From NCBI GenBank assembly GCA_029851415.1, contig CM056744.1, positions 71,046,172-71,110,171 on the forward strand: a stretch of DNA of 64,000 bases, given 5' to 3'. Below, piece by piece: positions 3,166 through 46,877 of the stretch (the stretch's first letter is position 1; every line of letters begins with the position of its first letter). The notes under the pieces are model-generated. The model ran no database searches. It was not told the DNA's origin and saw nothing but the letters and a program-made list of their open reading frames with translations. Origin of the DNA: Eretmocerus hayati. Lineage: Eukaryota > Arthropoda > Insecta > Hymenoptera > Aphelinidae. The position numbers and the translations under genes are program-made.

Positions 3166-3180
3166 CTGCCTGCATCTCTC

Positions 3181-14306: not shown

Positions 14307-14310
14307 GAGG
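14307..14310. repeat. Target-site duplication GAGG (left)
   Basis: GAGG directly precedes the TGTTATG start of the left LTR. The same GAGG directly follows the right LTR at 46874-46877. Four-bp duplications are within the usual range for Ty3/gypsy integrases. Confidence 0.85.
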
Positions 14311-14884
14311 TGTTATGGCCTGCGAATATTATTCTCGATTAAATAGCGTCCAGTCACCCAGAGTACTTTAATGCTAAATTCACACATGGAGTAGTGCCGG
14401 GGCGAGCCATACATCCTCTCAGCATATCATCCTCTATACACGATGAACCCAAGACTATTTGAAATATCTTAGAGCAAATGTCTGCTGGATTATCATTTTT
14501 ACAGGGACACTTAGTTGCGGCTCATTGACTAATTGGACGACTAAACGAATGACGGCAACAATCCAAAAATAATGTTTACGACGAGACGATCTCCAGGACC
14601 AAATGTAATGCCTTCTCTGGCACGTTTTGACTGAATTTGTACCTGACGCGGAACTGAGTATTGTGGACAGGAGTGAGAAGTGAACGGACTGCATCAATGT
14701 GAAATTAAGAATGATTATTCTGTAATTAATATTACCATCACTATTAAATTATATGCTGGTCGTGAGTATTTCGTGGCGGGAACCAATTGTCGGATGTATA
14801 TGTATAATCATGTGTTACATTTAGAAAAACCTATGCAGCGCACGAGAATAAACGTGCAGCCCATAAAGATTTCATTTGAATGAG

Positions 14885-15140
14885 AGAAAAGGGGCTGCGG
14901 CGCACTAAGCACTGTTGCTTTTAACATGGGTTTCCTATTTCACGATGTCAAAACGCTATGCGGCGCGCAGCAAGTCAATCGTTTTACATAAGCTTGCCGT
15001 ATAGAATCAAGGAAATGCTGTGCGGCGCGCTGCGAGTCGACACTTTAACATGAGCTTTCCATTTAGAATCAAGAAAACCGTGCGCGGCGCATGGAAAATC
15101 GAGCGTTTAACACGGGATCTCCATAAGAGCTGTCTCGGCT
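14885..15140 (+). repeat. About 62-bp tandem repeats in U3
   Basis: Four to five degenerate units each carry a TGCGGCGC(G/A)C core followed by a cgttttaacatgggctttcc-like segment; cores lie near 14895, 14958, 15019 and 15080. Repeated blocks just upstream of a TATA box are typical LTR enhancer arrays, and that role is inferred. The same kind of units recur at 26040-26290 and 27230-27480 inside the element. Confidence 0.7.
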
Positions 15141-15187
15141 CGACGAATCGGTTTTCAAAGGCGCATGCTCACGATTTTCCTCTCTTG

Positions 15188-15195
15188 TATAAATA
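15188..15195 (+). promoter_or_regulatory. LTR TATA box
   Basis: TATAAATA follows the U3 repeat array and lies about 330 bp before the LTR end. It is duplicated at 46538-46545 in the 3' LTR. It would drive the genomic RNA of the element. Confidence 0.6.
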
Positions 15196-15527
15196 TAGCT
15201 GCTGACCGCTGCTGGCCAGCTTTTTGACACGAAACTCGATACTGTAAAGTTCTCTCGACCAGCAATCTCACAGATGTCAATATTGTCAAGTGTCACGTAT
15301 AGAACTCGAGTAAAAGTAATCTTCAAGACAACTCTCGGCTCTTGTATTTCAATACTTAATCTGGGAACCCCACGGCCCTTCAATAACTTCAACCCACAGC
15401 ATTTGAGCGCAAGATTGAATTTCGCGCTCTTGGAACGAGTCTGCAGAAACAAACTGGAGTGAATTGGGCTGTAAGCTTCGAAACCGCTCGGAGGAGCCAC
15501 CTGTGCCCACCTGGGGCATAACAGATT

Positions 15528-15547
15528 TGGTGTCAGGAGTGGGATTC
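15528..15547 (+). other. Primer-binding site, tRNA-Leu type
   Basis: TGGTGTCAGGAGTGGGATTC begins 4 bp after the LTR. It fits the complement of the 3' end of a leucine tRNA (ending ...CTGACACCA). tRNA-Leu priming is known for the mdg3/blastopia/micropia group of Ty3/gypsy elements. Checking against the host tRNA-Leu set would confirm it. Confidence 0.85.
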
Positions 15548-15604
15548 TCCAGAAGAGCAAAAAGGAGTTGCAAAAATTACTTATCTAGAGAGAATCAAAC
15601 ATCT

Positions 15605-16102
15605 ATGAGCAGAACGCTGCCATTCACATCTGGCGTTCGGAATTCACCAATGACCAGCGAGGAGGCTCGACGCACTTTCGACCATTTGGTTGAAGTTATC
15701 GACGATCAAATCAACGAGGCTGTTCAACACGACAACTCGTCAAAACCCGACATTGAGAGCCAGATTTTGAAACAAATAGCGGACCAAGAAGCCTTCATCA
15801 GGGATCTACGCGCCAAGGAACCACAAAGCAATCGCGTCGGTTGCAGCGAGGCCCAATTGCTTGCCCTCAAAGGCGCCCTCAAGGGCTATTACGCCAACAA
15901 AGCCCGAGGCCAGCCTAGGCCGCTTCCACATTTGGGGGACGAATTCTCTGTGCCATCGAATCTTCCACGTATCCGAGCCTACGCAGATCTTACTGCTCTG
16001 GACTTGAGCACTCGTCCTACCTTGACCAATATCAGCGAAGAGGAGGAAACCACCTTATCCCGAGAGGAACAACCCTCAACTTCACGACGAAACGACTGCT
16101 GA
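15605..16102 (+). CDS. ORF1 of the giant retroelement, unknown function
   Basis: This is a 165-residue frame from an ATG at 15605 to a TGA at 16100-16102, located between primer site and gag. The protein is hydrophilic. Its N-terminal half is rich in charged residues and likely helical (DHLVEVIDDQINEAV and IESQILKQIADQEAF), and the C-terminus is acidic then Ser/Thr-rich. No known domain is recognised. It is in the same frame as the start of gag, so it could be a leader or matrix region cut off by a stop, or a separate product. Nothing like it is standard in mdg3 elements. Confidence 0.55.
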   Translation: MSRTLPFTSGVRNSPMTSEEARRTFDHLVEVIDDQINEAVQHDNSSKPDIESQILKQIADQEAFIRDLRAKEPQSNRVGCSEAQLLALKGALKGYYANKARGQPRPLPHLGDEFSVPSNLPRIRAYADLTALDLSTRPTLTNISEEEETTLSREEQPSTSRRNDC

Positions 16103-16300
16103 GGATCAGAAGCTCTGAAGTCCTGACTGACGAACATCGATGTAACGAGTCAACGATTACTGACAACCTGCACTCCGGCCCCCTCGACTGACGACCGCCG
16201 ATCGCTCTACACATTACTGCGCCGTTCTTCTGTTAAAAGCTAAGTAGTAGTCATAAGAATTTGGGACATTGAAAATTTGGGTATTTTCGATTCTGTCGGC

Positions 16301-17959
16301 ATGACCTCGGAGATGAGTGAGATTTTGACGCGTCTTGAGAAACTTGAAAAGGCAGTAAGCTCGTGCGAATCGAATGTGCGTGATCTTTCAAAACGAATGA
16401 ACGAAGTAGATGATCTTTTTGGCGAACAGTATAATATCAACTCGGAGGATCAGGACGCTCAATTTAACATCACTCGGGAACTTGTCGAACTTGGAAGCAA
16501 GTATACTTCTATCCTGCCTGTCCTCAAGGATATGTTAGAGTTGGTTAAGTTATCGAATGTTAGTCTTGAAAAGTACATAATAGAAATCAAACAAGAAATA
16601 AAATCATCTCTCGAGAGAATCGACAGAAGCGGAAATGATGCTGAGAGGAAGAAATCGAAAACCCGGCGCAACTAAATTGGCGAGGCCCACTATTTCCGAT
16701 CCCGTGGGGTTACCAATGAACACTATGAATTCAGACGGAAATAACGAAAATACCAATAATGTAGGGGAGCAGGGGTCCGTTGCGTCCATCCAATCTTCCG
16801 GCCTGGACCCTGGCTCCATGGAAACCAGCCGATTCAATAATCTTATGGGTGGCAGTCCCTTCGTTTTCCCTGTTTCTGTGAATGACGGTAGCACGTCCGT
16901 GCGAAACAATGATCATATTTCTCGCTGCACGGTGAGAAAAGCCACCGATGTGGTAAAAATTTACCAACCTTCAATGGTCGTGATACTACGGTGGATCAAT
17001 TCATTCGCGAGTGTAAAAACGCCGAGAGATTCGTGGACCCCACTGATAAAGATTTCTTCTTAGAACTTGTTAAATCCAAGATTGTAGAGCCAGCTAGAGC
17101 TCATATGCAGGGACGAATTTTCACGACTTTTGACGAATTTGTAAAATGTTTAAAGAGAACCTTCTCATCTGCTCAGAGCTTGCCTCAATTGCAGGTCGAC
17201 CTAGCCCGTGTGATTCAAAAAGAGGAGGAAAAAGTGACCGACTATGGGCTGCGTGTGACCAATATGCTTAATAGGGGGGTGGAACTGGTGAATGGTGGTT
17301 TTGAAGCTTCGGTCGCGCAAGGTATTATTGAGGGTCTTACCACGACCGCGATCGACTGTTTTGTGCTAGGATTGAAAACCGAAATAGCTCAAATGATTTT
17401 GGGGCGCGTTTTCACCACTCTCGAGAGTGCAATTGGCACAGCCAACGATTTAGAAAGACGGCTAGAACAAAGAAGATATTTGGGAGTTTCGGTGGACGCT
17501 AGACCGCGGCGTCTGTTTTGCCATGCCATCGAGAAGATCGACGATACAGTTAAACCCGACAACAAGAAAGATTATGATAAATCGAAAATACAATGTTATA
17601 ATTGCTCAAATTTTGGACATTACTCTCGTGAATGCAGGGCGAAACGAGCACCATACGGGAATAGACGTTTTTGTACTTATTGCAATAGATCCGGACATTC
17701 TATAATAACTTGTGAACAATTGCACCGACCTTCTAATCGCCCTACGGGACGCATAGTGAATCGTTCCGAGGAATATTGTAATTTCTGCCGTAGAGTGGGC
17801 CATTCTTTTAATGGTTGTAGGCAACGTTTGTCGCTGGAACGAGCTCCTCAGGAGAATAATTTAAACGGGAATCGCGACCGTCTGTTGGGGGCAAAGACGA
17901 GCTCGCCTCTTGCTAGACAGCCGTTGTCCAAAACCGTGACCTCCTCGAACAACCCGTAG
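16301..17959 (+). pseudogene. Gag polyprotein with three CCHC zinc knuckles, frame interrupted twice
   Basis: Gag would form the particle and package element RNA. From the ATG at 16301 the first part is a predicted coiled coil (SEILTRLEKLEKAV and following heptads). The reading then shifts to another frame at about 16640-16675 and back at about 16957, near AAAAA, so the central Asn/Ser-rich linker lies in a second frame. After 16960 the capsid starts with LPTFNGRDTTVDQFI and runs through the QKEEEKVTDYGLR block. Three nucleocapsid knuckles follow, all CX2CX4HX4C: CYNCSNFGHYSREC, CTYCNRSGHSIITC and CNFCRRVGHSFNGC. The compensating shifts may be genuine decay or homopolymer errors. Pol overlaps the end in the -1 frame. 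Confidence 0.8.
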
Positions 17960-17961
17960 AT

Positions 17962-20900
17962 AGGACACGCTGTCCCGTCATCCGTGTGCGTAGTCCGGAT
18001 TTGATTCATCGCGATGTCATATTATTGATCGACACTGGATCAGAATTGAATTTGTTGAAGATTAATATGCTCGCGACTCATGTGCAAGTTTCCGCGGGAC
18101 GTGTTTTCGGACTAGCAGGCATTGGCCATGAAATGCTATCTACTATAGGAGAAAGTATCATTCGCTTCGGAAACACGAATTGCGTAATGAATATGGTCCC
18201 AGCAGAGTTTCCAATTCCGTACGACGGAATTTTTGGTATTCAGTTTTTAAGAGAACAAGGAGCCCTTCTATCATTCAAAAACAATTTCATGATCTTGGAA
18301 AATTGCACTAATGTTCCCATACCTTTTTCGGTCCACAACACATTTCGTCTAACGGCTAGATCAAAAACTCTTTGCAAGTTAAATTTGAAGGGTACTAATT
18401 TGAATACAGGGTATGTGCCTCGCATTAACGTGGGACCAGATATTTTCGCGGGGGAGTGTTTGGTAAAAAACCGAGGGGGTTGGGCATATATGTTCGTGAT
18501 AAATTCTGCATCCAAGGACGTGAACCTTACCTTGCCACCGCTAACAATCTATGATTATGATGTGAAAAGAAACCGATATGTGAACTCTATAAGACAAATC
18601 CCTGAGGAGGAGAAGGATAGGGTGATTCAGGACCGGATAAAGAGAATCATGAAAGAATTAGATTTAGAGGAATTAAATGAAGAGGAAAAAGATAGTGTTA
18701 AAAGTCTAGTTGCCAAATTCCCTTATGTTTTTCATTTACCTGGTGACAAACTTAGCTTAACGAACGCAGCTGCGTATGAAATAAAAACTATAGATGAGAA
18801 TCCAATAAATATCAAGCAATACAGACACCCGCCACATTTGCAAAAGGTCATTCAAAAGAAGGTCGACGAATTAATTGAGAACGATATAGTAGAGCCTTTC
18901 TCATCACCCTATAATTCTCCTCTGTGGATAGTGCCCAAGAAAGACGATGCTAAAGGCAATAAACAGTACCGACTTGTCGTGGATTTTCGCGCCCTTAATG
19001 AGAAATCAATTGCTTCGGCATACCCGCTGCCAAATATTACCGACATCCTCGATCGGCTTGGTCAATGCCAGTATTTTTCGACACTAGATTTGGCCCAGGG
19101 CTTTTATCAAATTCCCCTAGCTAGGGAATCTAGGGGAAAAACCGCATTTAGCACCCAGTACCAGCACCTCCAATTCAGAAGACTAGTGATGGGTTTAAAG
19201 GGCTCGCCAGAATTTTTCCAGGAAACTATGAACAAAATTTGCAACGGTCTCCAAGGTACCGAAATTCTGATCTACATGGATGACGCTATATGTTATTCAA
19301 AAACCCTTCGGGAGCACTCTGAGAAAATGAAAAAACTCTTTGGCAGACTACAAACAGCTTCGCTGACGTTACAACCCGGTAAATGTAAATTCTTGAGAAA
19401 ATCGGTCGATTATTTGGGGCACATCATATCTGAAAGTGGCGTCAGACCAGATCCTAAGAAGTTGTCGGCAGTATCAAACTTCCCACGTCCGAAAACTCCA
19501 AAGAACGTGGAACAGTTTCTTGGATTAGCAGGATATTATAGACGATTTATCCCTAACTTCGCTAGCATAGCAAAACCGTTGACAACCTTGCTGAAACAAA
19601 ATGTACCTTTTTTTTGGGATCATGGGCAAGAAGAAGCTTTTGAGAAATTGAAAAAGACGCTGTGCTCCGAGCCACTGTTACAATATCCAGATTCCTCTCG
19701 TCCCTTCGTCGTGACCTCTGATAGTTCTGATTTTGCGTTGGGATGTGCGCTGAGCCAAGGTCCTATTGGCCGAGACTTACCTGTAGCTTACGGATCAAGA
19801 GTCCTAACGAGATTAGAACGAAACTACTCTACAATTGAGAAAGAATTGATGGCAATCATATTTGCAACAAGCCATTTCAGGCCTTATTTGTATGGCAAGG
19901 AGTTTACGCTGGTAACTGACCACCGACCATTGGTATGGCTGCACTCTCTTAAAGATCCCATGTCTCGATTCGCACGTTGGAGGATAAAATTGCGGGAATA
20001 TACGTACTCTATCGTACATAAACCTGGGAAAATCAACATGAACGCGGACTCGCTCTCCCGAAACCCTGTTCTCGCCGTTACAGACGACAAAAATGACTCT
20101 GACGACAATGACAGTGATACCGATCCTCTTACTAACATCCTGAAAAAACCCGAGACGAACGACAATACGACAGATTTCCGTACGACACGCAAACGAAGAG
20201 TGAGGGGGGTGGACGGAGAGAATGAAGGTAGTCCATCGAAAAAACGAAGACCCGATTGGTCGGATGATTCAGTGAGTAATGAAGGCAATCCATCGATAAG
20301 ACAAAGACCCGAATGGTCGGATGATACTGTGAGATATGAAGATAATGAGAAATTGAGATATGAGAAAGTTGATGGCCTGGATATAATGAGACGAGACGTT
20401 GACGAAATTGAGAGTGACACTATTATTGACAATCACCCCTCGTTGGTTGGGGTGATCCATTTGACTGACACCACAGTGGCGCATGTGGAAGAGCGGTCAT
20501 CTGTATACAGCCCCGCGAGAATCAGCCGAGACGGGTTGCAAATTGAGAAAGAGAATGACGATATTGTGAAAAGGAATCATGAATTGAAACTTACCTCATC
20601 GGTAAGAGTGATCCATTCAGCTGGTGCCGCATCAAAGCATGCGGCATCCCGGCTGTCTGTATACAGCTCTACGAAAACCGATCGAGACGATTATCGAACG
20701 CATAAAGAGAATGAGAATGACGATATTGTGAAAAGGAATCATGAATTGAAACTTACCTCATCGGTAAGAGTGATCCATTCAGCTGGTGCCGCATCAAAGC
20801 ATGCGGCATCCCGGCTGTCTGTATACAGCTCTACGAAAACCGATCGAGACGATTATCGAACGCATAAAGAGAATGAGAATGACGATACTGTGAAAAGAAA

Positions 20901-22782
20901 CCATGAATTGAAAATTTCCTCATCGGAAAGGGTGATCCATTCAGTTGATGCCACATCCAAGCATGCGGCAAGTCAGCTGTCTGTATACAGCCCCGCGAAA
21001 ACCGATCGAGACGACTATAGAACATATAGAGATGGATTGGTGCCACCAGAGGCAGAGGTCTGGTTTGAACCTCGATTGAAGGTTGACGAGAATATTATGA
21101 TACAATTGGGGGCCAAGCGCCCAGTGGATGAGGCACTATGGCCCGAAACAGCTCGGAAAAGAGCAAGATCAAGCGATGCTACCTTCATTACTGAGATTCC
21201 GAGTCCCATTGTTGATCGAAGTAAAGGACTGATAATTGAAGAAATAATTGATGATGACGAGAAACAACTGGAGAATGTACGAACAACTCAGATATTTTAC
21301 GTGACTAATATTGAGTACAGCCCAACGAGACTTCTAGATGAATTGGACAATATAGTGCATTTCATGTCATTAGACTGTGTTATTAATACACCTGTCGGTC
21401 ATATGTTGGTTGAATTGGAATATATCAATTTGGAAGTAATTAAGGCCCAAGACTTGGGAATTGGACACATAATACGCACAGAATTCGGAGATTACAATAT
21501 ATTTTCGATTTTCATCAAGGTACATCATAGAGACGCGGCTTCTGTAGAGTGTGTATCACATTGTCTCAAAATATTCAGAGATTACTTGAAGGACGAGGGG
21601 ATAAAATCGGTTCGGATGGCACGCATTGGTGATGGTTTGGATAACTTATTCTGGCCACCCATCGAGATGACGTTGAAAACCTTTGTCACGCTCGGCGACT
21701 TTAAACTGACGATATGTTCAGGGGAGATTTTGACACCTGAAGGGGATGATAGGAAAAGAGCACTAGCAGAAGCCCATGATTCCGCGGTTGGAGGTCATCA
21801 AGGGACATATAAAACATATAAGAGATTAAGGGAGAGATTCACGTGGCCTAATATGAAAAGGGATGTCGAGTATTATATTCGCACTTGCGAAAATTGCCAA
21901 AAAAATTAATTACGGAGAATCAAAACTAGAATGCCCATGAAAATCACTTCCACACCAACGGAAGCTTTTGAAGTAGTAGAAATCGATATTGTAGGACCCT
22001 TACCGGTAACCGAGAATGGTAATAAATACATCTTGACAATGCAGTGTAATTTAACGAAGTTTTCTGAAGCATATCCGCTTAAGGACTATACTGCTGAAAC
22101 AATCGCCGCCGTTTTTGTTAAAGAGTTCATATGTCGGTATGGGTGCCCTAGAATCATCAAAACTGATCAAGGGAGTAGTTTTCAAAGTGCCTTCATGGCT
22201 AGAGTTGCTTCTCTTTTCAAAATTTCCCAGTGGAAGTCAACCGCGTTTCACCCGGCAACTATGGGTTCACTTGAGCGCTCTCACCATGTATTTACGGAAT
22301 ATCTGATAAATTTTGCAAAGAAAAATCAGTGGGATCAGTGGATCAGCTTCTCGGTGTTCTCATACAACAATTCCACCCATTCAGGGCATGGATTTGCTCC
22401 TTACCAGTTAATTTACGGGAGGAAAGCGCGACTGCCATCAAGTTTTGAGACCCGAGTTATCGAAAAAACATACTCCGATTATCTTGATGATCTAATAGCC
22501 AAATTGAATGAAACGCAGGCTACTTCGTGAGAAAGACTTCTCCTAGCTAAAGAAAAAAGTAAACAATACTATGATCGAAAAACAAATGTTCAGTCATTCC
22601 ATGAAGGAGATATGGTTTACTTTCTGAAGGAACCCAGGACTGGAAAATTGGATGGACAGTATAGTGGGATGTTTCAGGTTGTGCGACATATTACTGATCG
22701 GAATGTTCTTATAAGGATGGGGCAAAAGACAAAGATCGTTCACATTGATAAATTGAAACATGCGTTTACTAGAGCAGATTGA
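17962..22782 (+). CDS. Pol polyprotein: protease, RT, RNase H, macro domain, integrase; two in-frame stops
   Basis: Pol is in the -1 frame relative to gag and open across the gag end, suggesting ribosomal frameshifting. Numbering from 17986: protease DTG at 16-18; RT from about 300, with YMDD at 430-433; RNase H with SDSSDF near 576, KELMAI near 619 and TDHRPL near 644; then a linker with basic NLS-like clusters (TRKRRVR, SKKRRPDW) and three 54-residue repeats; then an OARD1-like macro domain (about 1108-1239); then the integrase HHCC finger ending CENCQKN. A TAA at 21907-21909 follows. The same frame resumes with the integrase core (EIDIVGPL, KTDQGSSF, GSLERSHH giving D, D and E). A TGA at 22528-22530 precedes the C-terminal GPY/F-like segment, which ends at 22780-22782. 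All catalytic residues look intact, so the copy is recently dead or needs stop readthrough. Confidence 0.92.
20551..21012 (+). repeat. Three 162-bp (54-residue) tandem repeats inside pol
   Basis: Units start at 20551, 20713 and 20875 (GAGAATGACGATA), spacing exactly 162 bp, so the reading frame is kept. The first two are nearly identical and the third more diverged. Each encodes an ENDDIVKRNHELK...SVRVIHS block followed by SVYS..KTDRD. The array lies in the linker between RNase H and the macro domain. It is probably a flexible spacer expanded by replication slippage. Confidence 0.9.
21310..21700 (+). other. Macro domain (OARD1/Poa1-like) embedded in Pol
   Basis: Between the linker and the integrase finger the protein reads as a small alpha/beta domain. 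Its second half (IFIKVHHRD.., then HCLKIFRDYLKDEGIKSVRM and ARIGDGLDNLFWPPIE) follows the signature of OARD1-type macro domains, which have a Leu-rich helix, a G-(I/V)-K beta strand and the (R/P)IG.GLD.L.W loop. Family members bind ADP-ribose and remove ADP-ribose from Glu/Asp or from DNA bases. The N-terminal part (NIVHFMSLDCVINTPVGH) is more diverged, and whether the catalytic Lys is kept is unclear. The call rests on my recognition of the motif and not on a search. Confidence 0.65.
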
Positions 22783-22959
22783 GAAGCAACAAATAGCGGG
22801 GGCCCAAAGGCTCATTGATCAAACGTATGTGCCTTCCCCCCCCCCCCCCCCCATTTTTGCAATCAACTCTATATTATCAGGTTTAAGAATTTAATTCTAA
22901 TTACGTTGAATATATACAACAAAAACGCAGACTAGCATTTACATCAAAATTTCGATTTA
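22783..22959. other. Post-pol spacer with a poly-C run
   Basis: After the pol stop comes a purine-rich patch (agcgggggcccaaagg) and a run of about 17 C at 22836-22852. No LTR follows here, which is where a normal-sized gypsy element would have ended. No env-like gene is seen. Confidence 0.5.
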
Positions 22960-23900
22960 AGTTACACTGTTTTAGCATAATTTCAGATTCAAATCCCAAT
23001 ATCGGCAAATAATTTTTCCTAGATTTCATTCAGCTAAGGTAATTCTACGTAACACTCAAGTCTTCAATATCCGTTCAAGGATGCATATTTGGAGTAAATA
23101 TAAGGTATCATTAACCTCTTGAGATTCGACTCCAATCAAGGGTAGGTTTTATCTCATACTCGTGACCATTCTATATTGCGTGCTCAAAATGACAAGGAAA
23201 TAGAAAAAAAATACAAAAAGGGAAGTAATATATTCAGTTAGGTTGTTTAAGGATATATTGAGTATGTTAGATCGAGTAATTTTTCAATAGCAATAAATGA
23301 TTTTTCCTATTATACTTACTTCCAGGAATGATACCATTAGGGGATAAGATTTCATTCAAGTTGAAATGAGGTTCTATTTCATATTTATAAGCATTCTATG
23401 ATCGTGTGCTCAAAAAGACAAAGCAACAAAAAAAAGGAGGAAAGGAGATCATATACCCAGCTAGATTATTCAAGGTCGAGAGTCTATTGAATATGTAAGC
23501 TCAAGTAATTTTCCATAGCAGTAGATGATTCTTTTCATTTTTTCATTCGAAAGATATCGATTGAGGTGTTATTAGAATACCTACTCATGAAATTAAGGCG
23601 TGAGATTTGATTCGAGCTGAATTCAGCTCCATTGCATACTTATAAAAATTCTATAACTACGTGCTCAAAATGACAAAAAAAAGAGAGTGGAGGAAATCTA
23701 ATATTCATCTAGTTTAATCAGAGTGACGATATACTAAGTTATAGGGTATAACCTAAAAGCGGTATACGACTTTTCCTAGAATTCACTCGACTTAGGTTAA
23801 TCAAGTATTTATTGGCCCCAATATTCCTTAAGGATAAATATTCCTGTAGGCTTAAGGTATCACTGGAAGCTTGGATTTTAGATTTTTTTTTTCGTCTCAC
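22960..23900. repeat. Degenerate tandem repeats of about 225-250 bp
   Basis: The phrases GTGCTCAAAATGACAA (near 23178, 23404 and 23655) and a GATTTTTCCTA-type phrase (near 23010, 23298, 23527 and 23770) recur in the same order, giving about four diverged units. No coding potential is seen. Confidence 0.6.
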
Positions 23901-25560: not shown

Positions 25561-25601
25561 GTGTACATCGCCGGGGTGGCGTGTAGGTCCCATCAGGCTT
25601 G

Positions 25602-25815
25602 TTAACCATAGGAGTGGGGGCATCTCTCAACGTGTTTGATGTGACGCGGATCGATATGGTCTTTCGAGGCGTGGTATCGATTCAGCTTGCAATCCATCAT
25701 TCTGATTCCTTCAAGAATTGCTTTTATATAGGAATTTTGATCGAGTGTGAATACGTAATTTCTCCTCTCTATTTTTATCCCGAGGAAACAAGTCATTGCC
25801 TTCACACATAATTTT
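25602..25815 (-). pseudogene. Ty1/copia reverse transcriptase fragment, antisense
   Basis: The minus-strand translation FLGIKIERRNYVFTLDQNSY followed by IKAILEGIRMMDCKLNRY matches the conserved C-terminal region of copia RT (LGI.I.R....I.L.Q..YI..IL..F.M.DCK). Both ends break off quickly and a stop follows within about 70 codons. It is a short relic of a second retroelement class, lying inside the cargo of the giant element in reverse orientation. Confidence 0.7.
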
Positions 25816-32160: not shown

Positions 32161-32162
<2 letters not shown>

Positions 32163-32210: not shown

Positions 32211-32212
<2 letters not shown>

Positions 32213-35200: not shown

Positions 35201-35552
35201 TTGTAACTCTACAACTTTGTATCTCTAAGATGTCGATGGAAAGGCTATTTTAATTCCATTGCTGTCGAGATATGAATGACATTCCATTAGCCCTGCTATT
35301 TTAATAACCAAAGTCTGATAAATTATTATGATAGCGGTGTTCCTGAAAAGGATGGTTATAATTTGCGTTCGATCTGCGCATTGTAATAATGAGCACTCAA
35401 ATAAGTTTTGTAGCTTTGCATTTTTGAGTTTTGTGAGCCTATTTCAACGGCTATCGTTTCTCTCCGGCAAGATGATGTGAACTATGCATGCTTCTTTCGC
35501 GGTTAATTTAGAATTTATTAGATCCGATGAGAACTCATTGCACGTGGGATAT
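32211..35552. other. Non-coding cargo sequence
   Basis: AT-rich with poly-A runs at about 33134-33151 and 33850-33862. A minus-strand open segment at 32321-32214 (NPRKRTMLVFVASMKFMYY) could be an upstream exon of the JmjC gene, but no initiator context settles it. No other gene is recognised. Confidence 0.4.
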
Positions 35553-37594
35553 TACTATCGGTTTAAAAATGATTGACACCTAGAGAATTTCTGCTATCCT
35601 GGCTCCAAAAAAAATCGCTAATTTTTTTAACTGGGATAACGTCGAAGCACATCTAGTCGCGGCCATGATGAAATTTTTTTGAAGTCGATCGGATGACAAC
35701 TGCGGCTGTAGCTGTTATCAGAATGTAAAAAAACGCGGGTTTAAGGCCAATTTCAGAGGTAGCTCGACTTTGGGATGCTACAGCTCTGGCAAAAAAAATT
35801 CTGGGGCGCTGCAAAAAATGTAGGTGATAGATATTTGGTTCCCCAATAGCGTCCAACAACAATCAGCTAAAAAAATTAATAACTTTTGGAGATAATCCAG
35901 TTATTGTTATCTCGGGATCTATTGAGGTTAAAGACTTGATTCAAAAACAGAAAAATCATAAAAAAATTCTGGATGTCAAATACAAAAATGCAATATGAGA
36001 TTTTAAACAAACAAACGCGTGGCAAGGTCGCAAAGTTGAAAAAAATTAAAGTTTGCGCCTTTTGTGAGGCTTTTATTGTCCTTTACAGCCGGGGCCCGTA
36101 AAATCGTCGATGGGCGAGACTACCTGACCGCGGACCATAAAAGTCGTAAGGTTGCGGTCTCGGAGTCAATTAGGGTACCATCAGTCTGCTTCGGCTGCAA
36201 TATAGAAGGTGGATTTTCAACAAAGAGAGCAATAAAATTATTTCGAACGTGATTTGGGCCTTGCGTTACTATTACAAATATCGCCGATTCATCGATGAAG
36301 CATTGTCAATGATGAGTCGGACAGTATATCAATGACGCGTGTGTGCAGGTGCATGTCTCTCTCTCTCTCAGAGTTTCGCGATATCTGCATGTAAGTATTC
36401 TTTGGCGGATCCTTTAAGTGATTGATAATATACAATCAACACTTTATCCACATGATTCCGATGTGAAACAGTTGGATATCATCCGTATTGATAAGATGAC
36501 AATCGACAGTTGAATGATTTGGCTATCATCTTGTTCGACCGATCATTTATAGCATCATAGAAATGAATGTATGTCGTGTTATTGCGCGTTTTGCACAATC
36601 AATAATTATCAGTCAACGATCGAACAAGATAATAGTAAAATCATTCAACTGTTGATTTTCATCTTATCAATACGGATGATATCCAACTCTTTCACCATCG
36701 GAATCATGTGGATGAAGTATTGATTGTATATTATCAATCATTTAAAGAATCCGCCAAAGAATACTTACATGCAGATATCGCGAAACTCTGAGAGAGAGAA
36801 AGACACCTGCACTCACGCGTCACTGTTCGACTCATCATTGACAATCCTTCATCGATGAATCGGCGATATTTCTAATAGTAACGCAAGGCCCAAATCGCGT
36901 TCGAAATAGTTTTATCGCTCTCTTTGTTGAAAATTCAGCTTCATTATTGCAGCCGAAGCAGACTGATGGTACCCTAATTGACTCCGAGACCGCAACTTTA
37001 CGACTTTTATGGTCCGCGGTCAGGTAGTCTCGCCCATCGACGATTTTACGGGCCCCGGCTGTAAAGGACAATAAAAGCCTCACAAAAGGCGCAAACTTTA
37101 ATTTTTCTCAATTTTGCGACCTTGCCACGCGTTTGTTTATTTAAAATCTCATATTGCATTTTCGTATTTGACATCCAGAATTTTTTTATGATTTTTCTGT
37201 TTTTGAATCAAGTCTTCAACCTCAATAGATCCCGAGATAACAATAACTGGATTATCTCCAAGAGTTATTAATTTTTTTGGCTGATTGTTGTTGGACGCTA
37301 TTGGGGAACCAAATATCTATCACCTACATTTCTTGCAGCGCCCCAGAATTTTTTTTGGCAGAGCTGTAGCATCCCAAAGTCGAGCTACCTCTGAAATTGG
37401 CCTTATACCCGCGTTTTTTTACATTCTGATAGCAGCTACAGCCGCAGTTGTCATCCGATCGACTTCAAAAATTTTTCATCATGGCCGCGACTAGATGTGC
37501 TTTGGCGTTATCCCAGTTAAAAAAATTAGCGATTTTTCTTGGAGCCAGGATAGCAGAAATTCTCTAGGTGTCAATCATTTTTAAACTGATAGTA
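35553..37594. repeat. 2.04-kb near-perfect palindrome (foldback element)
   Basis: Termini TACTATC and GATAGTA enclose two arms of about 990 bp (35553-36545 and 36612-37594) that are reverse complements at roughly 95% by eye, with a loop of about 65 bp centred on 36573. Matching open frames in both arms are mirror images of the same DNA and not genes. No transposase is present. Confidence 0.9.
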
Positions 37595-38665
37595 GTTAGC
37601 GAGACCGAATCAGTTGTAGATCTTGATTTATGATTTAACTAGAGGTTGGTGCACTACACAGTGGTTATGCATGATGATAAGGATGCATTTTCTGATTGGT
37701 TCATGATACAAAAACTTTAGAAAAAGGAGTCAGATAAATTTTCAAAAACTATCATGGTGCATCGGGAAGACTCGGGGGTCGGCGATCCACAGGAACATAG
37801 AACCGCAAGGATAAAATCTCTGTATGGTGATATTTCGAAGGAAATGGGATAAGATGAAAATGAAGTTTCAATTTTTACGTTTTCTAGCATTCTACAACAA
37901 GTCATTGACTTATTTTAGGAGTAGATTTCGATATGAGTGGATAAACAGTATATTGTGGCATTGCACGTACATGGGTGATTTTGTACTAAAGACTGTTTGA
38001 GTATGAGTTTTTCGTAACAAAACTATCTATCTGTACGTAATCCAATACAATATTTTCGAGCACGAAAATCTGAGAACCGCGTTTCAAGTTGCGATTTTTA
38101 GTTGGGAGTGCTGGACAATTTTTTCTCCAAGAATAAAAGGTGAGGTCTGAAGTGAGCAAACCAGTAAAATTCATCGCATGATTAGTAACACGGCTTCTGA
38201 ATGAACACGATTCGTTGACAGTTCTTGACAGAGTCAACATTTTGTATATGGAAAAATTCGTATTCAATGATATTCAAGCTCTCGGACCGATGTCGAGGAA
38301 TTCAGTCATTCTCAAGAAGAACTCAAATTTTTCGAGTGGATAGGTGATTTTGAAGTGAGTGGCTATTATCAATTGGACTTGGAAAAGAGCCATAATTTTC
38401 TGCACATTCAACTGCATGATATTCAACTATTTGCTCCGTAATCTTTCGAGTGTAGATTTAATAGTAAGAGCATGATGAGGCTTTCAAGTATAGAAAATGC
38501 AGGGGTTATACAATTAGATGCAAATTTTTCATAGAATAAGAAATCTATTGTGAAGATTGGGATAAAATTGCGAGGTTATACTTATCGCGTGGCTCTTTGA
38601 GTGGAAGCGTATAAACTCAATCTTGAACACGCAAAATATGACTTGAAAACTACACTTGAGTGATA
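37595..38665. other. Non-coding cargo sequence
   Basis: No gene or repeat is recognised between the two foldback elements. Confidence 0.4.
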
Positions 38666-41268
38666 ACACCGGCCCACAATCCGAAGAAAAAATCGTTTAC
38701 CAGAAACGCGACCCACATAGATCGACGTAAAATCGAGCGCTGAATCCGAAAATGATGCCGGTTGAGCCACGCTACGTCACAATTTCGAGATAATCGTGAA
38801 AAAATTTTTTTTAACGGTGGTATCGGAATTTTGACCTCGGATTCTGAAAGTACAGATGATTTTACGTCCAAATATTGATTGAAAAAAAAATCGATTTTTT
38901 CACTCGGAAAACTGATAACCGTCATCCCAATTCCAATTTCATATTCCGGATCGAGTATTCGGAGAGAAATTCATGACAGAGTGCCCAAGGTGGTACTCGT
39001 GACGAAGTACTCCCAGTGGAATCCGTGACGAAGTACTCAGAGTGGTACTCGTGACGAAGTACTCGGAGTGGTACTCGTGACGGAGTACTCAGAGTGGTAC
39101 TCGTGACGAAGTATTCAGAGTGGTACTCGTGACGAAGTACTCTGCGTGGAACTCGTAACGGAGTACCCGGGATGGTACTCGTAACGAAGTACTCCGAGTG
39201 GAATTCGTGACGGAGTACCCAGAGTGGTACTCGTGACGAAATACTCAGAGTGGTACTCGTGACGAAGTACCCAGAGTGATACTCGTGACGAGTAACTCCG
39301 AGTGGAACTCGCGACGAAATACCCGGATTGGTACTCGTAACGAAGTAATCAAAGTGGTATTCGTGATGAAGCACTCGGAGTGGTACTCGTGACGAAGTAC
39401 TCGGAGTGGTACTCGTGACGAAGTACTCAGAGTGGTACTCGTGACGAAGTATTCAGAGTGGTACTCGTGACGAAGTACTCTGCGTGGAACTCGTAACGGA
39501 GTACCCGGGATGGTACTCGTAACGAAGTACTCCGAGTGGAATTCGTGACGGAGTACCCAGAGTGGTACTCGTGACGAAATACTCAGAGTGGTACTCGTGA
39601 CGAAGTACCCAGAGTGATACTCGTGACGAAGTACTCCGAGTGGAACTCGCGACGAAATACCCGGATTGGTACTCGTAACGAAGTAATCAAAGTGGTATTC
39701 GTGATGAAGTACTCGGAGTGGTACTCGTGACGAAGTACTCGGAGTGGTACTCGTGACGAAGTACTCAGAGTGGTACTCGTGACGAAGTATTCAGAGTGGT
39801 ACTCGTGACGAAGTACTCTGCGTGGAACTCGTAACGGAGTACCCGGGATGGTACTCGTAACGAAGTACTCCGAGTACCACTCTGAATACTTCGTCACGAG
39901 TACCACTCTGAGTACTTCGTCACGAGTACCACGCCGAGTACTTCGTCACGAGTACCACTCCGAGTACTTCATCACGAATACCACTCCGAGTACTACGTCA
40001 CGAGTACCACTCCGAGTACTTCGTCACGAGTACCACTCCGAGTACTTCATCACGAATACCACTCCGAGTACTACGTCACGAGTACCACTCTGAGTACTCC
40101 GTCACGAGTACCAATCCGGGTAGTTCGTCGCGAGTTCCACTCGGAGTACTTCGTCACGAGTATCACTCTGGGTACTTCGTCACGAGTACCACTCTGGGTA
40201 CTCTGTCACGAGTACCACCCTGGGGACCGTCACGAATTCCACTCGGAGTACCTCGTCACGAGTTCCACTCTGGGTACTTCGTCACGAGTCCCACTTTGAT
40301 TACTTCGTTACGAGTACCACTCTGGGTACTCCGTCACGAATTCCACTCGGAGTACTTCGTTACGAGTACCATCCCGGGTACTCCGTTACGAGTTCCACGC
40401 AGAGTACTTCGTCACGAGTACCACTCTGAATACTTCGTCACGAGTACCACTCTGAGTACTTCGTCACGAGTACCACTCCGAGTATTTCGTCACGAGTACC
40501 ACTCTGGGTACTCCGTCACGAATTCCACTCGGAGTACTTCGTTACGAGTACCATCCCGGGTACTCCGTTACGAGTTCCACGCAGAGTACTTCGTCACGAG
40601 TACCACTCTGAATACTTCGTCACGAGTACCACTCTGAGTACTTCGTCACGAGTACCACTCCGAGTACTTCGTCACGAGTACCACTCCGAGTACTTCATCA
40701 CGAATACCACTCCGAGTACTACGTCACGAGTACCACTCTGAGTACTCCGTCACGAGTACCACTCCGAGTACTACGTCACGAGTACCACTCGGAGTACTCC
40801 GTCACGAGTACCACTCCGAGTACTTCGTCACGAGTACCACTCTGAGTACTCCGTCACGAGTACCACTCCGAGTACTTCGTCACGAGTACCACTCTGAGTA
40901 CTTCGTCACGGATTCCACTGGGAGTACTTCGTCACGAGTACCACCTTGGGCATTCTGTCATGAATTTCTCTCCGAATACTCGATCCGAAATATGAAATTG
41001 GAATTGGGATGACGGTTATCAGTTTTCCGAGTGAAAAAATCGATTTTTTTTTCAATCAATATTTGGACGTAAAATCATCTGTACTTTCAGAATCCGAGGT
41101 CAAAATTCCGATACCACCGTTAAAAAAAATTTTTTCACGATTATCTCGAAATTGTGACGTAGCGTGGCTCAACCGGCATCATTTTCGGATTCAGCGCTCG
41201 ATTTTACGTCGATCTATGTGGGTCGCGTTTTTGGTAAACGATTTTTTTTTCGGATTGTGGGCCGGTGT
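38666..41268. repeat. 2.6-kb foldback element built on a 26-bp satellite
   Basis: Unique arms of about 300 bp (38666-38975 and 40965-41268) begin ACACCGGC and end with its complement. Between them lies a tandem array of a 26-bp unit (GTACTCGTGACGAAGTACTC plus ggagtg, with variants), about 75 copies. The array reads in one orientation up to about 39872 and in the reverse orientation after it. In the left half the array has a 338-bp (13-unit) higher-order period: gagtacccgg at 39161, 39499 and 39837. In the right half the corresponding phrase recurs 182 bp (7 units) apart (40373, 40555). Open frames here are repeat artefacts. Confidence 0.93.
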
Positions 41269-41494
41269 AATTCTTTCATTATTCTTAATTCTACGTCTCT
41301 ACTTCAACTGAGTTACCTGTAATTTTTCACCAGTGCAAATTTCTATCATCTGCATAGAATTTATGAGATTCTTTCGATTGATAAGATCGTAGGCCATATG
41401 AATAGAAATAGGAGGCATAAAAAAAATCCGGTAATATTATTTAATATGAAAAGGTCAAATGAAAGGTTTCCCGTTTGTCGCATCAAAATTACAC

Positions 41495-41884
41495 TTATTT
41501 GAAACACCTTGACAAGATTATAATGAAGAATAGAATCACGAAAATGGAAGCTATACCATACATACATAGAAAGAAATTGTCTCTCGCCACAGCCTCACCT
41601 GCGTACGACTGTCGCGAGGAGACGACTGTGATGGGGATGAGGCGAGGGTTGTGCCGAATTACGGTGTCCAAAAGTGCAACGCGCTGCTGTTCCGTGAATT
41701 GTAGCACACCTCTGGCGAAGAATACTCGGCCGCTTCGAAGATTTTCGGTTTCCAGTGCGACAGCGGTAGACATAAAATGCTCAAGCCGGGCGGCATTCTC
41801 CATTAACTGCTCTGGAATCTCGATTTCTTGTAGCGGCCCGTCAGGTCGGAGGTTAGCATCTTCGGCCGGGCGAAATGGTGCCAT
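41495..41884 (-). CDS. Tail-anchored membrane protein of unknown function, cargo ORF
   Basis: This 129-residue frame starts with an ATG in good context (aaaccATGG) and ends at 41495. The first 100 residues are soluble and mostly helical by composition (IPEQLMENAARLEHFMSTAV). A single C-terminal hydrophobic segment (about 105-125, MYGIASIFVILFFIIILS) is followed by RCFK, the layout of a tail-anchored protein inserted into ER or mitochondrial outer membrane. No family is recognised. It lies antisense to the retroelement, on the same strand as the JmjC gene and directly beyond the 26-bp satellite foldback. It is not an obvious env, since signal peptide, furin site and fusion peptide are absent. 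Confidence 0.5.
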   Translation of the reverse strand: MAPFRPAEDANLRPDGPLQEIEIPEQLMENAARLEHFMSTAVALETENLRSGRVFFARGVLQFTEQQRVALLDTVIRHNPRLIPITVVSSRQSYAGEAVARDNFFLCMYGIASIFVILFFIIILSRCFK

Positions 41885-42153
41885 GGTTTGATGTGCAAAT
41901 TTTACAAAAATTTGCAGAACTACAGATTTTGAGCCTCACAGAATAAATTTTTTTTGACAACAAAACTATACTGAATTTAGAAATTTTAGAGGGGGAAAGG
42001 GCAAAACATGACAAGAAATTTGGGGGTTGGGGAACGAACAAATATTATCGGATGGACAAACAAAACAACTGGGTAACGTGATGAAGTTATCGCCTTTTCC
42101 GTCGAGTATGGAATCGAACCTTTATATTCTGCCGCGAACCGTGATAATAGAAA
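41885..42153. other. Non-coding spacer
   Basis: Contains a B-box-like GGTTCGATTCC (minus strand, near 42110) without a convincing A box or cloverleaf, so no tRNA is called. Confidence 0.4.
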
Positions 42154-43975
42154 ACCGGGATTTGGAGGCACTCCAAATCCTACCTCTTAATTAACTTCTT
42201 GGATACATAACAGAATCGTACAGATCATTTGAAGTGAATATTTTATTATCGGGGCACAATTAAAACGTATTAGAATCGAATTTTCTCGGAAAATAGGACA
42301 TTTTGAGAAAACCGGGATTTGGATAGGATCCAAATCCCGCTTCCAAAAATTATTATTTTTAGGCGTACGAGGGGGGAGAAAATTATTTCGAGTGAATGTT
42401 TATCATCAAGAGGGTGTAAAGATACATTACAATTGGTTTTTTCGAAAAAATAGGAAATTTTGAAAAACCGGGATTTGGATGGGATCCAAATCCCGCTTCC
42501 AAAAAATTATTATTTTTAGGCGTACGAGGGGGGAGAAAATTATTTCGAGTAGATGTTTATTATCAAGAGGGTGTAAAGATACATTACAATTGGTTTTTTC
42601 GAAAAAATAGGAAATTTTGAAAAACCGGGATTTGGATAGGATCCAAATCCCGCTTCCAAAAAATTATTATTTTTAGGCGTACGAGGGGGAGAAAATTATT
42701 TCAAGTAGATATTTACTATCAAGAGGGTGTAAAGATACATTAAAATTGGTTTTTTCGGAAAAATAGGAAATTTTGAAAAACCGGGATTTGGATAGGATCC
42801 AAATCCCGCTTCCAAAAAATTATTATTTTTAGGCGTACGAGGGGAGAGAAAATTTATTTCAAATGAATGTTTACTATCAAGAGGGTGTAAGGATACATTA
42901 CAATGGGTTTTTTCGAAAAAAATAGGAAATTTTGAAAAACCGGGATTTGGATAGGATCCAAATCCCGCTTCCAAAAATTATTATTTTTAGGCGTATGAAG
43001 GGGGAGAAAATTTATTTCGAGTGAATGTTTACTATCAAGAGGGTGTGGGGATACATTACAATGGGTTTTTTCGAAAAAATAGGAAATTGTGAAAAACCGG
43101 GATTTGGATAGGATCCAAATCCCGCTTCCAAAAATTATTATTTTTAGGCGTATGAAGGGGGAGAAAATTATTCCAAGTGAATGTTTACTATCAAAAAGGT
43201 GTGAGGATACATTACAGTTGGTTTTTTCAAAAAGAATAGGATATTTTAAAAACCGGGATTTGGATGGGATCCAAATCCCGCCTCCAAAGATTGTTGTTTT
43301 CAAGCGTGCAGAAATTGGGAAAATTATTTCGAGTAAATGTTCATTATTGGAAGGATGTGGGGACGCACTGAAATCGGTTTTTTTTCAAAAGAACAGGATA
43401 TTTTATAAAACCGGGATTTGGATGTGATCCAAATCCCGCTTCTGAGAATTGTCGTTCTTTATGCATACCTGACTTACACAAATTATTGTGGGTGAATTCT
43501 ATCATCAGGAACGTAATTGGAGTGTGGTAGTGTCAGATTTTTTTTGGATGATAGAATATTTTGAGAGAACCGGGATTTGGATGAGATCCAAATCCAGCTT
43601 CTGAACGATCATCATTTTTGGGCATACCTGGGGTGCTTATGTTACTTTAAATGAGTTTTATTATCGAAAGGTGATTAAGATATATTAGAAAACGGATTTT
43701 TACGAAATAGGATATTTTAAGAAAGCGGAATTTGGATGTGGTCCGGATCCCACTTCTAAATGTTATCGTTTCCATGCACGCCAGAGTTGCACATGCCTTC
43801 TCGATTGAATGCCTATTATCGAGATGTGATTGAAATATGTTAAGGATATCGTTTTCTCGGGGAATAGGAATTTTGAGAAAGCGGGATTTGGATGCAGTAC
43901 ACAAAATTTGGCGAATTATGTGGAATGAGGTTTTTACTATGAAAGTAATATTGGGATATATTTGAGCCAAAAGTT
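42154..43975. repeat. 157-bp tandem array with a palindromic core, about 12 units
   Basis: Units begin near 42154, 42311, 42467, 42624, 42780, 42939, 43096, 43252, 43410, 43569, 43725 and 43880, spacing 155-159 bp. Each holds the hairpin GGGATTTGGAT..GATCCAAATCCC and a conserved attattatttttaggcgta segment. Central units are nearly identical and outer ones increasingly diverged, as expected when unequal exchange homogenises the middle. Confidence 0.95.
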
Positions 43976-44417
43976 TTCCTCTTGTCGGTCTCATCCCAAC
44001 CTTTTCATATCACGGCGGGGTAGCGCTGGGGTGCGAAAATGGACTATAAGAAAAGTGAAGTCTGCAAGAATTCATTTTCAGTGAGGGGGGAGCATGTGAA
44101 GGTGAATACCTACCTCTAGACAATTTGAAGGAGAATAATTCTTCCATACAAACCAACGATTTCTTGTCGCTGAGATTTTCGGTCAATTAATTCTCGCCCT
44201 ACTCAAGACTGCTGATTAGCATATGAGTTGCACTCTCACGCAGTGAAAAGGGCAATAAATATTCGTCCTCGTTGGATGCGTCACCCGATGCTGTTTTCGG
44301 ATGCAGAGCCATAAATTCTGAACGCAACTGCATGTTCAATCCTATAGTAAAAGAACCTATAGCGCAACAAGACCCAAGGGGTCAGCAGGAAGGTCTCTTC
44401 TCATAGAGACCCCGCCT
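43976..44417. other. Non-coding spacer
   Basis: No gene or repeat recognised. Confidence 0.4.
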
Positions 44418-44804
44418 TTACAACGCAAATATCATTAAAGCCAAGCGATTCGAATCGAAAACATAGATTCCGATCCACGGTAGATGAGCCAATGCATCAC
44501 AGCAATAACACTTAACCATCTTCTCATCGAAACTCAAAATAAGGAGGAAGGGGGGCGTGTCAGCATGACACATAGTCGTGTGAACTTGGAGATTTTCATT
44601 AGCTATGTGCAAGCCCTCGATTACGAAGAAGGAATCGATGCATGTAGTTGAAATATAAACATGAACAGGATGTATATACAAAGATCCAATGGCACCAGGC
44701 GAGTTGAGAATGGGCATTGGTACTCGATAAAATAATCTCATACGAAACATGAGGGTTAGAACCTGATAAGCAAATAAGTTATAGGAAAAATGAATCCACT
44801 TACC
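44418..44804 (-). other. Possible coding segment, weakly JmjC-like
   Basis: The minus-strand frame ending at 44418 contains MVKCYCCDALAHLPW followed by IGIYVFDSNRL. That last stretch resembles the WIFVFDSQRFISVI strand of the JmjC protein at about 31.7 kb. A donor-like CTGCAG|GTAAGT (44803) and acceptor-like tttgcttatcag (44763) flank a 41-bp candidate intron, short for an animal. The metal-binding His-x-Glu is not clear here. It may be a decayed second copy of the cargo gene or coincidence. Confidence 0.25.
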
Positions 44805-45651
44805 TGCAGAAATTTTTTCGATATCCCCAAAAGGACCTCCGAATTTGAATTGAACTAGTTGCTTTCACAAAAAGGCGCGAATCGAACCACCTGTTGCAAA
44901 TAATGATGGCAAGACTCCCAACGCGATCTTATGCGCACGATGAAATAGTAACGAGTATGAGTAATTTGAACCTGAGGTATGATCGTTTAGCAAACAATTC
45001 CACGATTATACGCGGTGTTCTTGCATCTTACTGGTGTCAGGAATCTCATGTAGCGGATGCGTAATATCGAAACCAGACATTTTTCTGAAAATTAAATGGC
45101 TTATGAGACAAGATTCGATGCGTAGCAGGGGGTGGGTCGGCAGCGAGACTGGATTTTTACTAATAAAGACATGGAGAAATTTCAATCATTAGCAAATTGG
45201 AGCTAGACACGAAGGTTGTGTAGCCCAGAGGAGGAATTCGGGAAAATCCGAACTCACTTCCGCGCGCACTTCATCGATTTTCGAGTATTTGGTTCACCTC
45301 AGTAACGGTTGATTCGATGAATTTCATGGGAGGTATCTTCAGTTGTAATATCAGTCGATCAGATTTGTACGAATTGAATGGTACTCTGGTTAGTGGTCCC
45401 AAGATGGCCAAATTTGACATGATACTCGCAACCATACGGCAGCCTAAAGTTTCCTCTGTGTATTTCAGGCTTCAGCATAGCGAGTGCAATAATAAAAAAA
45501 GGGGGGTCGGGGGTCGCTTTTCATGCATCACAAATTCGAATTGCAAACGTCATCAAGTAATAGCCACCCCTCAGGTATCGAAGAAAATTTTTGTATGGGT
45601 CAAAAATGACTTATTAAAAGGTGCATCCTATAAGAATGCACTTTTTGCTAT
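44805..45651. other. 3' internal region of the giant element
   Basis: A plus-strand open frame from 45317 runs into the LTR but shows no domain. A purine-rich run (aaaaaaaggggggtcggggg) lies near 45495. Confidence 0.35.
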
Positions 45652-45660
45652 GGGGGGAGC
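45652..45660 (+). other. Polypurine tract before the 3' LTR
   Basis: GGGGGGAG followed by C directly abuts the TGTTATG start of the right LTR, the expected place for plus-strand priming. Confidence 0.7.
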
Positions 45661-46873
45661 TGTTATGGCCTGCGAATATTATTCTCGATTAAATAGCGTC
45701 CAGTCACCCAGAGTACTTTAATGCTAAATTCACACATGGAGTAGTGCCGGGGCGAGCCATACATCCTCTCAGCATATCATCCTCTATACACGATGAACCC
45801 AAGACTATTTGAAATATCTTAGAGCAAATGTCTGCTGGATTATCATTTTTACAGGGACACTTAGTTGCGGCTCATTGACTAATTGGACGACTAAACGAAT
45901 GACGGCAACAATCCAAAAGTAATGTTTACGACGAGACGATCTCCAGGACCAAATGTAATGCCTTCTCTGGCACGTTTTGACTGAATTTGTACCTGACGCC
46001 AAACTGAGTATTGTGGACAGGAGTGAGAAGTGAACGGACTGCATCAATGTGAAATTGAGAATGATTATTTTGTAATTAATATTACCATCACTATCAAATT
46101 ATATGCTGGTCGTGAGTATTTCGTGGCGGGAACCAATTGTCGGATGTATATGTATAATCATGTGTTACATTTAGAAAAACCTATGCAGCGCACGAGAATA
46201 AACGTGCAGCCCATAAAGATTTCATTTGAATTAGAGAAAAGGGGCTGCGGCGCACTAAGCACTGTTGCTTTTAACATGGGTTTCCTATTTCACGATGTCA
46301 AAACGCTATGCGGCGCGCAGCGAGTCAATCGTTTTACATAAGCTTGCCGTATAGAATCAAGGAAATGCTGTGCGGCGCGCTGCGAGTCGACACTTTAACA
46401 TGAGCTTTCCATTTAGAATCAAGAAAACCGTGCGCGGCGCATGGAAAATCGAGCGTTTAACACGGGATCTCCATAAGAGCTGTCTCGGCTCGACGAATCG
46501 GTTTTCAAAGGCGCATGCTCACGATTTTCCTCTCTTGTATAAATATAGCTGCTGACCGCTGCTGGCCAGCTTTTTGACACGAAACTCGATACTGTAAAGT
46601 TCTCTCGACCAGCAATCTCACAGATGTCAATATTGTCAAGTGTCACGTATAGAACTCGAGTAAAAGTAATCTTCCAGACAACTCTCGGCTCTTGTATTTC
46701 AATACTTAATCTGGGAACCCCACGGCCCTTCAACAACTTCAACCCACAGCATTTGAGCGCAAGATTGAATTTCGCGCTCTTGGAACGAGTCTGCAGAAAC
46801 GAACTGGAGTGAATTGGGCTGTAAGCTTCGAAACCGCTCGGAGGAGCCACCTGTGCCCACCTGGGGCATAACA
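45661..46873 (+). repeat. 3' LTR of the giant retroelement
   Basis: 1213 bp, identical in length to 14311-15523, with about 11 substitutions (for example at 45919, 46000-46001 and 46675). Same TGTTATG/CATAACA ends, with a TATA box at 46538-46545. A purine tract precedes it, and no primer site follows it, which fits a 3' LTR. Confidence 0.93.
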
Positions 46874-46877
46874 GAGG
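46874..46877. repeat. Target-site duplication GAGG (right)
   Basis: Matches GAGG at 14307-14310. Confidence 0.85.

Follow-up and report, generated by a model that had tools for sequence, protein, structure and literature searches.

The 64,000-nucleotide stretch of the genome of the aphelinid wasp Eretmocerus hayati that was analysed here, hereafter the window (C4:71046172-71110171 of the 692,130,109-base assembly), contains one long terminal repeat (LTR) retroelement of 32,563 bp, at 14311-46873. With a probability that we put at about 0.83, this element belongs to a natively giant Ty3/gypsy family of the wasp, which has a modular middle and, in some of its members, an antisense gene for a JmjC protein. 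The transposing unit is composed of an LTR, gag, pol with a macro-like domain, a long and variable middle, often a third open reading frame (ORF3), a conserved 3' region and a second LTR. Its middle is modular, with satellite arrays in some copies and a spliced antisense gene, combining a JmjC domain with a C2H2 finger, in others. This reading is carried by the boundaries of the element, by the repeated insertion of the family with 4-bp duplications, by the mobility of a 16-kb block, and by the recurrence of the antisense JmjC gene with intron 1 at a fixed codon.

Boundaries and coding regions of the window element

The element lies between two LTRs of 1213 bp, at 14311-15523 and 45661-46873 on the forward strand, which differ by 11 mismatches without gaps, have the ends TGTTATG...CATAACA and are bordered on the outside by the target-site duplication GAGG (14307-14310 on the left and 46874-46877 on the right); the span of 14307-46877 counts both duplications too. 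The first-pass annotation had deduced a single integration event from these features, and we concur. It had also reported a primer-binding site inside the left LTR and a purine tract inside the right one: both signals exist on the forward strand, but their placement has to be corrected, the primer site (15528-15544) lying directly 3' of the left LTR and the purine tract (45652-45659) directly 5' of the right LTR. The primer site is of a type that we take to fit tRNA-Leu; its exact motif is present in E1, E2, E4 and E5, among the sibling copies described below, and absent in E3. Rfam and tRNA scans returned nothing. Paired LTRs, target duplication, primer site and purine tract are those of an LTR retrotransposon, the internal region of which measures 30.1 kb; as first reported, gag-pol accounts for less than 8 kb of this, its reading ending at 22782. 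Under substitution rates that we assume to be 8.4e-9 and 2.9e-9, the divergence of the LTRs gives the window copy an age of about 0.5-1.6 million years.

The gag region (15524-17959, forward strand) has zinc knuckles and a broken frame, with frames 1 and 0 overlapping near 16.93 kb, and is followed on the same strand by pol (17917-22782), which contains reverse transcriptase (RT), RNase H, the macro-like domain and integrase, three tandem repeats of 162 bp or 54 codons (20545-21023, forward strand) and in-frame stops at 21907 and 22528. The Pfam matches, from zinc knuckle through RT and RNase H to integrase, follow the Ty3/gypsy order, with integrase downstream of RT-RNase H, and the assignment to Ty3/gypsy is based upon this domain order. 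No envelope family, as would befit an errantivirus or a retrovirus, was found when the larger ORFs of this element and of its siblings were scanned with Pfam.

The stretch between RNase H and integrase (21340-21714, forward strand) matches O-acetyl-ADP-ribose deacetylase 1 in the PDB (E value 1e-4) and appears constrained, since its ratio of non-synonymous to synonymous divergence (dN/dS) is 0.10 against E3 and 0.07 against E5. The comparison with E1 gave a ratio of 4.7 on 0.5 synonymous changes and that with E4 gave no value; for the RT, synonymous divergence (dS) from E1, which has lost most of this domain, was 0.64 on 144 codons. Conclusions on the divergence of macro-like domain and RT are consequently drawn from E3, E4 and E5. 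A single-sequence fold of the macro-like stretch was discarded for its predicted local distance difference test (pLDDT) score of 35, and residues 700-1280 of pol had no match at E 0.01 among the 7993 candidates scored from the protein collection. The accessible text of PMC4977317 mentions macro-domain ORFs in fish endogenous retroviruses; no report of a macro domain in a gypsy pol was found among the literature matches listed.

A family of giant copies with a mobile middle

Searching the assembly with the LTR returned at least 59 matches, a lower bound because the best 40 of 160 candidates were scored, and these matches group into 18 LTR-delimited intervals. The size of the window element, presented at first as far above normal, is usual for its family: 13 of the intervals (the window and E1-E12) measure 20-38 kb, four are longer (E14, 69 kb; C3:170 and C2:36.9, about 87 kb each; C1:110.8, about 128 kb) and one measures 8.3 kb. 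The last, at C3:133.22 Mb, was read at one LTR, where a short match to ORF3 comes after gag, and on this basis looks like a deletion copy. LTR pairs with matching 4-bp duplications bound C3:170449288-170536486 (87 kb) and C4:46786968-46855843 (69 kb), and at C2:36962090-36963303 an LTR is found between a 3' region and a gag, as in tandem copies with one common LTR. The siblings, which are also giant, occur on all four chromosomes and have sequence in common after pol and before the right LTR. A recent burst of gypsy elements has been reported for Eretmocerus hayati, according to the accessible text of PMC13116730.

Identical 4-bp duplications were present outside both ends in 13 of the 14 copies tested, namely the window (GAGG), E1 (GTGC), E2 (GGAG), E4 (GGAC), E5 (ACAC), C3:170 (ATAT), E6 (GAGT), E7 (ACTG), E8 (CAGG), E9 (CCCG), E11 (GCGT), E12 (ATCC) and E14 (CTGG), which excludes chance for the structure of the window element; E10, C3:133, C2:36.9 and C1:110.8 were outside this test. 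The two LTRs of a copy may be nearly identical, with a single mismatch in E1 (1/1207) and in C3:170 (1/1213), or more divergent, as in E3 (26/1211).

The mobility of the long DNA after pol is most evident from E1 and E2, which lie on different chromosomes (C1 and C4) at target sites with different duplications. The pieces aligned between them span E1 from end to end (25 kb) and are 99.6-99.95% identical; since the 16 kb that separate pol from the 3' region are among them, this DNA must have moved together with the LTRs. E2 has an additional 9 kb within pol. Giant internal regions are found both in the window (30.1 kb) and in the co-moving pair (22.7 kb), and the C2:36.9 copy aligns with E1 at 94-99% over the greater part of its final 20 kb. 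Given that the RT core is missing from E1 and E2, and most of the integrase from E4, such copies would need help in trans.

In the window, the family sequence that follows pol (22783-30606, forward strand) is colinear in E6 at about 78-91% identity, with gaps. The colinearity with E6 extends over 19768-30606, after which E6 enters, within about 14 bp, the 156-bp array and then the sequence corresponding to 44097-44603. E6 is therefore without the block of about 11.7 kb (approximately 30.6-42.3 kb) in which the JmjC gene of the window is situated, and on the sequences compared either a loss in E6 or a gain in the window could account for the difference. Parts of the colinear stretches are also present in E1, E2, E3, E5, E12, C3:170 and C2:36.9, and siblings have sequence of the window's 22.8-30.6 and 42.1-45.7 kb at equivalent positions of the element. 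The satellite array of 156/157-bp units (42281-43442, forward strand), which had been annotated initially, has relatives in E1, E2, E6, C2:36.9 and C3:170, and the conserved 3' region follows at 44097-45660 on the same strand.

It is in this 3' region that siblings carry ORF3, a sense ORF of about 500 amino acids with a cysteine-rich end (L010:8203-9708 in E1 and L021:7344-8870 in E4), which was found in eight of the 12 copies that were read fully or partly (E1-E6, E9 and C2:36.9). ORF3 had no Pfam or PDB match, and its dN/dS is 0.29 (E4), 0.62 (E5) and 0.23 (E3). It is absent from the window and was not found in what was read of E11, E12 and C3:170. At 44689-44697 of the window, the sequences that precede and follow ORF3 in E3 and E5 meet with a 9-bp overlap, a join which looks like the trace of an ORF3 deletion.

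The antisense JmjC gene

The window element carries an intact gene on the reverse strand, antisense to gag-pol, of 536 codons and a stop. Exon 1, with the ATG (41599-41884), was recognised because the paralogs P0003 and P0004 match there, at 54% and 49% respectively; intron 1 (32120-41598) has 9479 bp; exon 2 (31112-32119) encodes the JmjC domain (Pfam E 2e-9); and after a second intron of 71 bp, exon 3 (30724-31040) encodes the C2H2 finger and runs to the stop. Both introns are of GT-AG type. The large intron 1, of some 9.5 kb, contains two foldbacks, one with arms of 773 bp that are 96.4% alike (35553-37594) and the other composed of 26-bp repeats (38663-41271), the outer 323 bp of its arms being 98.5% alike; inspection by eye revealed no convincing target duplications for either. 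The JmjC gene and the 26-bp foldback, listed as cargo in the first-pass annotation, are thus present as described.

The JmjC domain keeps the HxE...H motif, the residues of which we take to be the iron ligands. In the predicted structure of exon 2 (mean pLDDT 62), the best matches are a human 2-oxoglutarate oxygenase and KDM4 enzymes, with template-modelling scores of about 0.3-0.4 against KDM4A/D, while among viral folds the three highest-ranking matches are JmjC proteins of filamentous viruses. From this model the protein would be KDM4-like, with histone demethylation as its predicted activity. Within the protein collection it is most closely related to proteins of Eretmocerus hayati, and the named match outside Eretmocerus, at 32% identity, belongs to Cotesia congregata filamentous virus 1. 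The intact frame cannot be taken as proof of selection, as about 0.27 nonsense changes would be expected since insertion. A weak JmjC-like stretch at 28057-28194 on the reverse strand, without the iron-ligand histidine (E 0.004-0.3 without composition correction), may be a relic.

JmjC sequences are strongly amplified in the genome, many of them with long open frames: exon 2 has at least 126 matches at E 1e-5, again a lower bound since the best 120 of 276 candidates were scored. From these matches 52 loci were listed by hand, with fragments merged and weaker rows left out (some with E near 1e-23). By position, eight loci fall in seven of the 18 intervals, hence in a minority of them, and all eight are antisense to gag-pol. 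Apart from the window gene, 7 of the 51 listed loci are inside intervals, against 0.055 expected by length (Poisson P 3e-13); the number is 5 if C1:110.8 is excluded. None of the left-out rows lies, by eye, inside the 18 intervals, and with them the expectation rises to about 0.1, so the enrichment stands.

Of the 12 copies read completely or in part, five have the gene (window, E3, E4, E11 and E12); it was not found in E1, E2 and E5, the complete sequence of which was read, or in the portions covered of E6, E9, C2:36.9 and C3:170. Intron 1 interrupts the same codon in all five, with approximate lengths of 155 bp (E11), 200 bp (E4), 360 bp (E12), 3.0 kb (E3) and 9.5 kb (window); exon 2 is open in E12. 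Between the window gene and those of E3, E4, E11 and E12, about 80% of synonymous sites differ (pS about 0.8), as do 32-39% of non-synonymous sites (pN 0.32-0.39), whereas the dS of RT-RNase H between the window and E3 or E4 is 0.16. The JmjC lineages must then have separated long before the gag-pol regions of their carriers split, and it follows that either the middles have been exchanged or the gene has been captured more than once. In protein trees, close JmjC relatives also form three groups of two or three, the members of which lie on different chromosomes.

Elsewhere in the window, outside the element, there is a broken reverse transcriptase of non-LTR type (Pfam RVT_1 and zf-RVT; 1226-3188, reverse strand), an inverted copy related to it and 89% alike (5096-5638, forward strand), and a dense nest of tandem and inverted repeats of about 171 bp (61337-64000).

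Competing explanations, mechanism and significance

How did an LTR element come to carry some 22 kb of DNA after pol? The first-pass annotation had left the choice between cargo borne by the element and a young element that quickly collected nested insertions. The evidence mainly supports the former, given the giant siblings and the 16-kb block of E1 and E2, yet accretion has contributed to the growth of the window copy too, because about 9.5 kb of its cargo is one intron with two foldbacks, four siblings having only about 0.15-3 kb in the same place. That an ordinary element of 9-10 kb gathered all 22 kb after landing is nevertheless very improbable: the post-pol and 3' sequences recur at equivalent places in siblings, the middle of E1 and E2 moved with its LTRs, and divergence between the two arms of the first foldback (28/773) exceeds that between the LTRs (11/1213), even if such an element could have arrived already diverged. 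A large DNA transposon surrounding the JmjC gene would fit nested insertion, but the single candidate, with inverted ends and duplications (26639-44816), was weak and we rejected it, as its score was reached by 6 of 200 random controls. A copy passing from pol straight to the purine tract, which would have spoken for late accretion, was not seen among the 12 copies read fully or partly. As for an artefact of assembly, we regard it as negligible, having found no point in its favour: the same architecture is found, with matching duplications, at many sites, and the published assembly was built, according to the accessible text of PMC10482854, from PacBio HiFi reads with a contig N50 of 7.96 Mb.

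The origin and role of the JmjC gene are less clear-cut. These genes could constitute a large family, of the host or otherwise mobile, that was captured several times and rides in the elements without use to them. This has a good chance of being correct, albeit somewhat short of even odds, considering the abundance of JmjC matches in the genome, the location of most listed loci outside the 18 intervals and the damaged genes of some copies; set against it are the uniform orientation of all eight genes, the common intron position in five divergent copies and a pS far above pN, a constraint that could also have acted in host copies. An endogenized gene of a filamentous virus is an unlikely source. 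The match to the Cotesia virus and the viral fold matches are in its favour, and so is the entry of such genes into Leptopilina genomes (PMC11750357, accessible part), but the spliceosomal introns of the gene, which occupy conserved codons in five copies, argue otherwise, and in the same source the virus is argued to have taken the gene from eukaryotes. Pfam scans of the element's larger ORFs, which were not searched for filamentovirus proteins such as LbFVorf10, also gave no further viral domain. Two scans of viral contigs returned no relative.

The proposal of a natively giant family with exchangeable middles has its own difficulties. The complete cargo of the window was not found in a second copy among the siblings recovered. 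The window copy has a broken gag and a broken integrase (the frame change near 16.93 kb and two in-frame stops), about one nonsense change being expected in its pol since insertion, and the ends of E3 have no matching duplication. With regard to JmjC, 11 of the 18 intervals are without a match, 44 of the 51 other listed loci are outside the intervals, among them the two nearest relatives of the window gene (C2:95.56 and C4:34.70 Mb), and the gene is broken by stops in E3 and E4 and by a frame change in E11.

If the family is natively giant, sense RNA starting in the left LTR would be copied whole by reverse transcription and integrated with a 4-bp duplication. The introns of the antisense gene would survive this RNA stage because the sense RNA does not contain their splice sites. 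When packaged RNAs have matching ends and unlike middles, template switching could exchange the middles and generate mosaic copies, the alternative being repeated capture of the JmjC gene. The gene would presumably be driven by its own promoter. Removing repressive histone methylation is the most probable benefit to the element, with a passenger role about as likely; that a KDM4-like enzyme relaxes the silencing chromatin of the element's own copies can be advanced only tentatively. The same reserve applies to the broader idea of an exchangeable epigenetic cargo, in which the spliced antisense JmjC gene and the macro domain of pol would together counter silencing chromatin and middles would be traded by recombination.

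Various aspects of the family have precedents, described here as far as the accessible portions of the cited papers go. Burro, the giant gypsy-like element of planarians, is also a Ty3/gypsy element of more than 30 kb, with an internal region of up to 25 kb and extra host-like domains; these extras, however, are mostly in one huge sense polyprotein, instead of a modular middle with an antisense spliced gene, and a term search of the paper did not find JmjC (PMC6431247). The plant elements Grande, RIRE2 and Retand have an extra gene between pol and the 3' LTR that is antisense to gag-pol and conserved within families, as in the wasp, but their ORFs are argued to be without relatives outside the elements, whereas JmjC is a known enzyme with many relatives, and the word intron is absent from both texts (PMC7264820, PMC11963269). 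Bdelloid LTR retrotransposons similarly acquired accessory ORFs that passed between retroelements, though the ORF3 types named for them are GDSL, DEDDy, CC and TM, without JmjC (PMC5408684). Related JmjC genes are those of Filamentoviridae, LbFVorf11 and MhFV ORF67, which also involve exchange between wasps and mobile genomes, the CcFV1 member being 32% identical to the window's JmjC protein; they reside in large DNA viruses and endogenized copies, not between LTRs (PMC11750357, PMC10403939). No report of an LTR element encoding a JmjC protein was found among the literature matches listed, a scope that mostly leaves out subscription papers.

Since giant gypsy elements and antisense ORFs after pol were already known, the family of the window is a variation on a known kind. 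It constitutes an animal family of LTR retrotransposons several times the usual size, the long post-pol DNA of which is demonstrably mobile, and three subjects meet in it: retroelements of giant size, accessory genes in antisense orientation, and JmjC genes exchanged between parasitoid wasps and their filamentous viruses. If the enzyme removes silencing marks, it would represent a counter-defence borne by the element itself. Copying an intron-bearing gene via the opposite strand would, furthermore, be a route for retrotransposing whole genes with their introns, which is closed to processed retrogenes.

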